53,855 bases of DNA, taken from the NCBI GenBank assembly GCA_022827685.1, contig JAJEIH010000109.1, positions 1 to 53,855 of the forward strand, read 5' to 3'. This document shows positions 36,265 through 39,452 of the stretch, one piece after another. The position numbers were made by a program, and so were the translations under genes. Under the pieces are notes generated by a model, which searched no databases, was not told where the DNA came from, and saw only the letters and a list, made by a program, of their open reading frames with translations. Every line of letters starts with the position of its first letter. Position 1 is the stretch's first letter. This stretch comes from Alphaproteobacteria bacterium. GTDB taxonomy: Bacteria > Pseudomonadota > Alphaproteobacteria > Bin95.

Positions 36265-37104
36265 TCAGGACGCGGCCAGCGGCGCGTAGTCGTCCAGCAG
36301 CCTGAGCGCCTCGTCGCGGCTCATGTCCGGTATCTCGAACAGCGCCCGGTCCATGCCGGCCTCGCGGCAGGCGGCGAGCTTCCCCTTGTCCGGCGGGGCG
36401 CGGAAGAGCGTGACCTGCAGGCTGGACATGTCCCGCCCGGCGGCGTCGGCATGGGCGCGCAGGCGGTCCATCTCGACCCGGGGGTCGAAGCCCGGCCGCG
36501 GCCGCGGCAGCCAGCCGTCGCAATAATCCACCACGCGGCGCAGCGTGTAGTCGGTCTCCCCGCCCATCAGCAGCGGCGGGTTCGGCGTCTGGACGGGCTT
36601 CGGCCAGGACCAGCAGGGCTCGAAGGACACATGCTCGCCGGAGAAGGACGCCTCGTCCTCCGTCCAGAGCTTCTTCATCGCCAGCACGCGCTCGCGCACG
36701 ATCGCGAAGCGGGTGCGGTAGGTCGCGCCGTGGTCTTCCATCTCCTCGACATTCCAGCCGCCGCCGAGGCCGAAGATGAAGCGCCCGCCGGACAGCCGGT
36801 CGAGGCTGGCCACGACCTTGGCGGTCACGATCGGGTCGCGCTGGGCCAGAAGGCAGATGCCCGTCCCGATGGTCAGCTTCTCCGTCGCCGCCGCCGCGAA
36901 GGACAGCGCGATGAAGGGGTCGTGGGTGTGCGCATAGCGCTTCTGCAGCGGCCCGCCGGCCGGGAAGGGAGAGCGCCGACTTGTGGGGATATGGGTGTGC
37001 TCGGGCACGAAGAGCGCCTCGAAGCCCCTCTCTTCCAGCGCGACGGCAAGTTCGGTGATGTCGATGGAATAGTCCGTCGGAAAGATGAAGACGCCGGTTT
37101 TCAT
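36265..37104 (-). CDS. LLM-class oxidoreductase (F420-type)
   Basis: A 279-residue luciferase-like monooxygenase fold. The N-terminal KTGVFIFPTDYSI, then FVPEHTHIP, FIFGLGGGWNVEEM and MGGETDYTLRRV are typical of the F420-dependent subgroup rather than the FMN one. The window also carries F420 synthesis and reduction genes, which supports an F420 cofactor. It overlaps the upstream ubiG fusion by 4 nt. The substrate is unknown. Confidence 0.8.
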   Translation of the reverse strand: MKTGVFIFPTDYSIDITELAVALEERGFEALFVPEHTHIPTSRRSPFPAGGPLQKRYAHTHDPFIALSFAAAATEKLTIGTGICLLAQRDPIVTAKVVASLDRLSGGRFIFGLGGGWNVEEMEDHGATYRTRFAIVRERVLAMKKLWTEDEASFSGEHVSFEPCWSWPKPVQTPNPPLLMGGETDYTLRRVVDYCDGWLPRPRPGFDPRVEMDRLRAHADAAGRDMSSLQVTLFRAPPDKGKLAACREAGMDRALFEIPDMSRDEALRLLDDYAPLAAS

Positions 37105-38150
37105 GTGTCGGGAGAGTCCTTTTCTCGATATCGGGCAAGGCGCTCGGCGATCTCCTCCTCCCGGAGGATGCCGAGCTCGACGATGTTGGCCTTGAGGGCC
37201 AGCAGCCAGCGCTGATAGTAGCCGAGGCCGTCATAGAGCGGCCCGGGCAGGTCCTCCTGCGCGCGCCGGCTGCTGTCGCTGGTCAGGCGCGGATCGTAGT
37301 CCTGGAGCAGGACCTTCATCGCATCGACGCGCTTGCCGAACCCGTCGGGCGGCGTCTCGTCGCGTTCGACCGGGCCGGCGTCGCGGCCGCCATAGTCGCT
37401 GACAAGGCCGGAGGCGTCGGAAGAGGTTGCAGCCATCAGGTAATTCACCGAGAGGTCGCGGGTGAGGGTCCAGGCGCCGGAGAGCGGCGCATAGCTCATG
37501 CCCGAAACCGCCGCCGGACGCAAACCCGCGCCTCGGACTGCGCGGGCCAGCTCCGAAGGCTTCACGAAACGCGAGAAGTCATGCGTGCCCGGCGGCAGCC
37601 AGCGCAGCAGGTATTCCGCGCCGATCTTCGCCTTGAGCAGGCTCTCCGCCGTGCGGTTGAGCGTCGAGAACAGCATGAGCCCGCCGGGCTTGAGCAGGCC
37701 TGCCGCCGCGCGCACGAACGCGCCGAGGTCCGGGACATGCTCCACGAGTTCCAGTGCGAGGACGGCGTCGAAGCGTTCGCCGGCCAGCGATTCGACTGCG
37801 GCGCAGCGATAGTCGATGTCGAGGCCGGCCGCCGCCGCATGGGCGCGCGCGATCTCCACCGTCTCCGGCTCCGCGTCGATGGCGGTGACGGCGGCGCCCA
37901 GCCGCGCCATCGGCTCGGTCACGAGCCCGCCGCCGCATCCGGCGTCCAGCAGGCTGAGGCCCGCCAGCGGGCGCGGCGCCAGCGGGTCGCGGCCGAAGCG
38001 GTCGGCGATCCGGTCCCGCACCCAGCCGATCCTGACCGGGTTCATGGCGTGAAGCGGCCTGAATTTGCCCTCGGGGTCCCACCACTCATCGGCGATGGCG
38101 GCGAAACGCCGGGTCTCCTCCGCATCCACGGTTGCGCCGGGCTCTGTCAT
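37101..38150 (-). CDS. ubiG: UbiG methyltransferase fused to nitrile-hydratase-beta-like domain
   Basis: Residues 1-241 are a complete UbiG, the O-methyltransferase that acts twice in ubiquinone synthesis: LLDAGCGGGLVTEPMA is the SAM motif (about 68), LELVEHVPDLG and PPGTHDFSRFVKP follow, and the domain ends at DLSVNYLMA. Residues 242-349 resemble the N-terminal helical region of nitrile hydratase beta or its accessory proteins: AGPVERDETPPDGF, LYDGLGYYQRWLLAL and ELGILREEEIAERL. The Met at 239 is in frame, so a separate protein could also be made from it. ATG 38150 is the start; it is divergent from lysC. Confidence 0.82.
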   Translation of the reverse strand: MTEPGATVDAEETRRFAAIADEWWDPEGKFRPLHAMNPVRIGWVRDRIADRFGRDPLAPRPLAGLSLLDAGCGGGLVTEPMARLGAAVTAIDAEPETVEIARAHAAAAGLDIDYRCAAVESLAGERFDAVLALELVEHVPDLGAFVRAAAGLLKPGGLMLFSTLNRTAESLLKAKIGAEYLLRWLPPGTHDFSRFVKPSELARAVRGAGLRPAAVSGMSYAPLSGAWTLTRDLSVNYLMAATSSDASGLVSDYGGRDAGPVERDETPPDGFGKRVDAMKVLLQDYDPRLTSDSSRRAQEDLPGPLYDGLGYYQRWLLALKANIVELGILREEEIAERLARYREKDSPDT

Positions 38151-38234: not shown

Positions 38235-39452
38235 ATGGCACGTCTCGTCCTGAAATTCGGCGGCACCTCCGTCGCTGACCGGGAGCATATCCGCAATGCG
38301 GCCGCACGCGTGGCGCGCGAGGCGGCGGCCGGGCATGAGGTGGCCGTTGTGGTGTCCGCGATGTCCGGCGTCACCAACGACCTCGTCGGGCAGGTCGCTG
38401 CCGTCGCGCCGGTCCATGATACGGCGGAATACGACGCCGTGGTCGCCACCGGCGAGCAGATCACAAGCGGGCTGATGGCGCTAACCCTGCAGGAAATGGG
38501 CGTTCCGGCGCGGTCCTTCCAGGGCTGGCAATTGCCGATACGGACCGACGGCATGCACGGCCGGGCGCGCATCCGCCATGTGGAAGGCGAAACGCTGCGC
38601 TCGGCGGCGGCAGCCGGGCAGGTCGCCGTGGTGGCGGGCTTCCAGGGGCTTTCGCCGGATGGACGGGTTACCACGCTCGGCCGCGGCGGCTCGGACACGA
38701 CGGCGGTTGCGCTGGCCGCGGCGCTGGAGGCGGACCGTTGCGATATCTACACCGATGTGGACGGCGTCTATACCTGCGACCCGAGAGTGGTCCCGAGAGC
38801 GCGGAAGATCGAGCGGATCGCATTCGAGGAAATGCTGGAAATGGCGAGCCAGGGCGCCAGGGTCCTGCAGACGCGCTCGGTTGCCATGGCGATGCGGCGC
38901 GGCGTACGACTCCAGGTGCTCTCCAGCTTCGAGGAGACGCCGGGAACCCTGATCGTCGGCGAGGATGAGATAGTGGAAGAACAGGTTGTTACCGGGGTGG
39001 CGGTCTCGCGGGAGGATGCGAAGGTGACGCTGACGGGCGTCGAGGACCGCCCGGGCGTCGCCGCGGCGATTTTCGGCCCGCTTGCCGATGCCGAGATCAA
39101 TGTCGATATGATCGTCCAGAACGTCGCCGACGGAGGCCGGCATACGGACATTACCTTCACGGTGCCGAAGACCGACCTTGAGCGCGCCACCGCCTTGCTG
39201 AGGGAAGCCTCCCTTGCCTTCGAAACGCTGGCGCCGGACCCGAATGTCGCCAAGGTGTCGGTCGTCGGCATCGGGATGCGCAGCCATGCCGGCGTCGCCC
39301 AGAGGATGTTCGCGACCCTCGCGGCGCGCGGCATCAATATCGAGGTGATCTCGACCTCCGAGATCAAGATCAGCGTTCTGATCGAGGAGGAATATGCGGA
39401 ACTGGCGGCAAGGGCGCTGCATACGGCCTATGGACTCGACCGCGACGATTGA
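38235..39452 (+). CDS. lysC: Aspartate kinase
   Basis: Phosphorylates aspartate, the first step to lysine, threonine and methionine. The 405-residue protein has LVLKFGGTSVADREHIRNAA, VATGEQITSG, LGRGGSDTTAVALAA and DVDGVYTCDPR. Two C-terminal ACT domains (about 265-400; VTLTGVEDRPGVAA and VVGIGMRSHAGVA) bind the amino acid inhibitor. It is divergent from ubiG and the first gene of a unit with the next two. Confidence 0.96.
   Translation: MARLVLKFGGTSVADREHIRNAAARVAREAAAGHEVAVVVSAMSGVTNDLVGQVAAVAPVHDTAEYDAVVATGEQITSGLMALTLQEMGVPARSFQGWQLPIRTDGMHGRARIRHVEGETLRSAAAAGQVAVVAGFQGLSPDGRVTTLGRGGSDTTAVALAAALEADRCDIYTDVDGVYTCDPRVVPRARKIERIAFEEMLEMASQGARVLQTRSVAMAMRRGVRLQVLSSFEETPGTLIVGEDEIVEEQVVTGVAVSREDAKVTLTGVEDRPGVAAAIFGPLADAEINVDMIVQNVADGGRHTDITFTVPKTDLERATALLREASLAFETLAPDPNVAKVSVVGIGMRSHAGVAQRMFATLAARGINIEVISTSEIKISVLIEEEYAELAARALHTAYGLDRDD

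Follow-up and report, generated by a model that had tools for sequence, protein, structure and literature searches.

A UbiG methyltransferase fused in frame to a nitrile hydratase beta N-terminal-like domain in one genus of uncultured Alphaproteobacteria

Passages of a review describe how two conserved arginines of the nitrile hydratase (NHase) beta subunit pair with oxidised cysteines of the alpha subunit and drive subunit swapping, and report that betaArg56 variants are inactive (PMC7193024). The described proteins closest to the domain studied here are the beta subunit of thiocyanate hydrolase (2dd4 chain B) and the beta-N protein of split-beta NHases, which it resembles in a full-length profile comparison and in its helical fold, and with which it shares an N-terminal arm and an active-site arginine; unlike them, it is fused to the ubiquinone-synthesis O-methyltransferase UbiG instead of being encoded with alpha and beta-C. 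The NHase activators, or self-subunit-swapping chaperones (P14K, TIGR03889), in the sections of PMC3511329 that describe them, are likewise weakly NHase-beta-like and small, as is the standalone form of our domain, but the latter keeps the N-terminal arm, which the accessory protein of the same genome lacks. Man-made fusions, among the constructs described in part of PMC4709657, also join an activator or a beta piece covalently to another protein, but they link NHase subunits and activator to one another, whereas our domain is joined to a methyltransferase unrelated to NHase. This partner matches the UbiG family (TIGR01983) over the full profile, has its conserved motifs intact, and lies next to an aspartokinase gene, as do the ubiG genes of sister genera; in the unfused UbiG proteins whose ends were read, the chain stops shortly after the NY motif, and the ~100 extra C-terminal residues of the fusion are absent. 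A literature search returned no report of this domain architecture, nor any paper with both 'nitrile hydratase' and 'ubiG': the architecture is a new one, made of known parts.

The window, i.e., the whole stretch of 53,855 nucleotides that was analysed, carries on its minus strand an open reading frame of 349 codons plus stop (37101-38150; 349 aa), which we confirm to be a genuine fusion of a complete UbiG followed in frame by an NHase beta N-terminal-like domain. A first-pass annotation made from the sequence had proposed both parts, and both hold. Residues 1-238 (37437-38150, minus strand) form the UbiG domain: TIGR01983 matches residues 12-238 over its whole length (model positions 1-228 of 228; 262 bits, cut-off 103), the domain shares 47-55% identity with the unfused UbiG found in six genomes of the sister genera, and most of this part is modelled with high confidence in the full-length structure prediction. 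Residues 239-250 (37401-37436, minus strand) form the junction, made of the end of UbiG's last strand and a short variable linker, and include Met239 (codon at 37434-37436, minus strand). Residues 251-349 (37104-37400, minus strand) form the tail, assigned by PF21006 (NHase_beta_N) and by profile comparison; PF21006 matches residues 251-344 with 35.9 bits in the whole protein (cut-off 21.5, E 8.9e-9) and the tail alone with 39.6 bits, which is well beyond chance.

On the plus strand, the divergent neighbour at 38235-39452, which we take from its sequence to be an aspartokinase gene, has orthologues beside the unfused ubiG, and likewise divergent from it, in 6/6 genomes of two sister genera, and marks the ancestral ubiG slot. 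Since this is the only ubiG found in the window genome (the next match has an E of 2.2e-5), we infer that the UbiG part performs its normal role. Behind the fusion lies the gene of an LLM-class F420-dependent oxidoreductase of the TIGR03619 family (36265-37104, minus strand; 257 bits), which is 89-94% identical and adjacent to the fusion in all six other fusion genomes searched, and whose orthologue in the sister genera is located elsewhere than ubiG. The stop of the fusion and the start of the LLM gene share four nucleotides (ATGA, 37101-37104, minus strand), an overlap noticed at first pass and kept in the window and in the seven other copies (8/8); it would allow the LLM gene to be translated in coupling with the fusion, which is less than the coupling of all three functions proposed at first pass. 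The LLM class is greatly expanded in these organisms, with 53 matches in the window genome (E <= 1e-3) and 23-79 in relatives.

The fusion is real and, within these uncultured Alphaproteobacteria, fixed in a single genus. Seven other contigs with the full or nearly full-length fusion (86-91% identity) came out of a scan of the GTDB representative genomes, all other matches kept being to the UbiG part only (at most 56% identity). In a search of the eight whole genomes available for the genus, seven had the tail; six of the seven contigs apparently belong to the same genomes as G001-G006, having the same sequences, and the two counts are not additive. In the eighth genome (G007), the best ubiG match has an E of only 5.9e-7, and the ubiG locus would lie beyond the end of a contig, because the aspartokinase match starts at base 1 of that contig. 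Mean dN/dS (NG86, averaged over the pairs of the eight copies, i.e., the window and the seven others) is 0.147 for UbiG residues 1-238, 0.190 for the tail and 0.286 for junction residues 239-252 (27 of 28 pairs usable); the tail is under purifying selection. The sole length change of the junction among the eight copies is an in-frame deletion of three nucleotides, i.e., one codon, in L015.

What the tail resembles can be refined beyond the NHase-beta likeness proposed at first. A profile built from the tails and their standalone homologues (hereafter orphans) has as its best match the thiocyanate hydrolase beta subunit 2dd4_B, over its full length (E 2.8e-8), with NHase beta chains next; the tail is an NHase beta-N-like domain whose nearest solved relative is the thiocyanate hydrolase beta subunit. 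In the profile output, residue 295 of the fusion (codon at 37266-37268, minus strand) aligns with betaArg56 of the Rhodococcus beta chain 1ahj_B, and its equivalent is invariant in 12/12 tails and orphans, which also retain the D.GG..AG N-terminal arm. There is no beta C-terminal domain in the tail, and hence no second arginine: against the full NHase beta model (TIGR03888) it scores 32.6 bits, far below the cut-off of 152.2, over positions 8-99 of 226. The tail is also far below the cut-off of the accessory-protein model TIGR03889, scoring 14.4 bits against 46, and four orphans score 13.3-14.0 or give no match. Modelled alone, the tail is helical (mean pLDDT 73.5), whereas within the model of the full-length fusion its pLDDT is under 50 and unreliable. 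The 14 best Foldseek rows for the tail model are all thiocyanate hydrolases or NHases, though none of them reaches E <= 0.001, and the highest VIA Z, 7.4, could by itself reflect a common helical arrangement; because these structural matches are weak, the identity of the tail rests on the sequence profile.

The sister genera show where the tail may have come from. Each of their six genomes has a homologue of the tail as a standalone gene (99-129 aa, 45-49% identity), which is on another contig than ubiG in five genomes and ~13 kb from it in G013. The first pass had suggested looking in relatives for a separate ubiG with a small gene downstream: both genes are indeed separate, but the small one lies elsewhere, not directly downstream. 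No NHase alpha or beta-C was found within these standalone-gene loci; judged by eye from their translations, the neighbours there presumably include a TerC-like membrane protein, CoA transferases and an amidase. A tree of 53 domains unites seven tails with seven standalone proteins (six of this family and one of G107) at a support of 99/94, and places them beside the operonic split beta-N copies of the family; the alignment has few columns and some long branches, so that the deeper forks are unsure. This tree took seven of the eight tails, without repeated loci and without the operonic and classic copies of the window genome itself, and the alignment used for searches (A1) held six of the eight tails, L011 and L013 being dropped as near-copies. 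The standalone proteins of sister genus g2 begin with MPRLPSDYGG or similar, where the fused tail reads ..GLVSDYGG; the tail has lost its old start, and UbiG has kept its own end. These comparisons give good support to an evolutionary account in which ubiG gained, by fusion, an orphan paralogue of NHase beta-N. They show that 1) a beta-N paralogue of the split-beta, thiocyanate-hydrolase-like NHases is a standalone gene in the sister genera; 2) in the fusion genus this paralogue, without its own start, continues the reading frame of ubiG and is followed by the LLM gene; and 3) ubiG has not moved from its position next to the aspartokinase gene.

The absence of an NHase alpha near the fusion, remarked upon at first pass, is correct for its contig (C111), which has no alpha, and no NHase gene lies close to the fusion. 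Elsewhere, however, the genome does encode alpha, with two genes (contigs C89 and C69) and a further fragment (C87). Actually, NHase alpha is present in all 14 genomes of the family. One NHase operon of the window genome is classic, with an accessory gene on C69 that matches TIGR03889 above cut-off (70.5 bits); in the second, of the split type, beta-N and beta-C are encoded separately. The operonic split beta-N lacks the D.GG..AG arm in 10/10 family genomes examined, and in G107 (11/11), whereas in the same alignment the arm is present in 5/5 split beta-N of other families, these being five operonic proteins from outside the family among those fetched (standalone genes of other origins in other families were fetched and only scanned). 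In genus g2 the active-site arginine of the operonic copies is also replaced (4/4); in the fusion genus these copies still carry it. The arm-less operonic proteins (C89:3838-4140, i.e., L090, and the relatives L113-L116, L229 and L248-L250) may be accessory-like by now; against TIGR03889, the ten operonic proteins compared are all below 46, the best having 23.0 bits. The tails and orphans keep both the arm and the arginine, and the comparison suggests that the displaced beta-N copy kept the structural role. Against this, the operonic copies of the fusion genus have not lost the arginine, and in our searches the split-type operon was not seen in G003, G005, G009 and G012, which bear the fusion or an orphan (the two main alpha loci of G009 were opened, the others being match listings), and a dedicated role in split NHases would therefore not be general.

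We lean, with little more than even confidence, to a reading in which the UbiG of the fusion works normally and the tail can still dock an NHase-type alpha subunit while tethered to UbiG. The tail would be a folded helical domain which engages alpha through its N-terminal arm and Arg295, and, once docked, would serve either as a beta-N subunit or in assembly, in the manner of the self-subunit-swapping chaperones; this docking is inferred from the residues retained. A less probable reading, which nevertheless deserves serious consideration, is that the tail has left NHase work and now serves UbiG, e.g., by mediating dimerisation or providing a scaffold within the ubiquinone-synthesis complex. 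The fixed fusion to the only UbiG found, the purifying selection, the lack of an NHase gene close by, and the persistence of the fusion where no split NHase was found would all be expected if this were so, but the residues that were retained, arm and Arg295, are those of NHase beta and are common to orphans unlinked to ubiG. Further down in probability, and doubtful to us, is a stronger version of the tethered docking: that beta-N was duplicated, the operonic copy decayed and the displaced copy became the working beta-N, here as the tail of UbiG, so that the NHase assembles with UbiG attached. If true, the nitrile hydratase and ubiquinone-synthesis pathways would be physically linked.

Two further possibilities are improbable. 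One is that the tail is a tolerated passenger, joined through the loss of a stop and with no function of its own. The restriction of the fusion to a single genus and the variability of the linker would fit, but the low dN/dS of the tail, near that of UbiG (0.19 against 0.15), disfavours it, as do 27 columns that are invariant across fused and standalone copies. The other, which is about as improbable, is that the gene yields two products, the full fusion and a separate tail started at Met239, near the standalone form. This internal start had been proposed at first pass, and the methionine is indeed present in 8/8 copies, with GGTGA eight nucleotides upstream in seven of them. Yet Met239 sits inside UbiG's last beta-strand (residues 236-243 in the model), the standalone proteins of g2 start about seven residues closer to the domain, and the GGTGA, broken in L015, is explained by the conserved SVN codons which dictate it. 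A methionine occurs at the equivalent position in 3 of the 75 unfused UbiG proteins read (79 loci given). Internal initiation is thus unlikely. Finally, an assembly or frameshift artefact joining two genes, which the fragmentation of the window's assembly (167 contigs) might evoke and which the first pass had named as a risk at the junction, is rejected, because the same fusion recurs in the seven contigs of relatives with only an in-frame change.

Beyond the genus, a search with A1 in 385 genomes of the class gave a match in 89, and in a 398-genome sample of the phylum eight had one with E <= 1e-15, all of the same class; the sequence in front of the domain was inspected at the fetched loci only. 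The best match outside the family, in a 385-aa frame of G107, was considered as a fusion and rejected: the domain follows a Met, the preceding frame is not UbiG-like by eye, and we read the domain as standalone. NHase alpha is found in 89/89 of the positive class genomes, a co-occurrence that tells little of the orphans because most A1 matches are ordinary operonic beta-N. In G038 and G169 (L106/L202 and L205), a beta-N-like domain lies a few bases from an NHase alpha match or overlaps it in coordinates.

The fusion joins a core enzyme of respiratory-quinone synthesis to part of a metalloenzyme that acts on nitriles, and one family with standalone, fused and reduced operonic forms offers a natural test of the origin by duplication of beta-N pieces and NHase chaperones. 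One fusion-bearing symbiont bin (L012, MPNF01000133.1) comes from the sponge Aplysina aerophoba, as stated in part of PMC5649159. PMC3766881 describes a defence chemistry of Aplysina that involves a nitrile and an unassigned nitrile hydratase activity, and, for Aplysina cavernicola, an activity whose peptides were without homology to known NHases. The family-wide NHase genes may bear on this activity. A contig labelled as from a Chloroflexi bin (L016, VXPS01000099.1) carries the same alphaproteobacterial fusion with 89% identity and is probably mis-binned.
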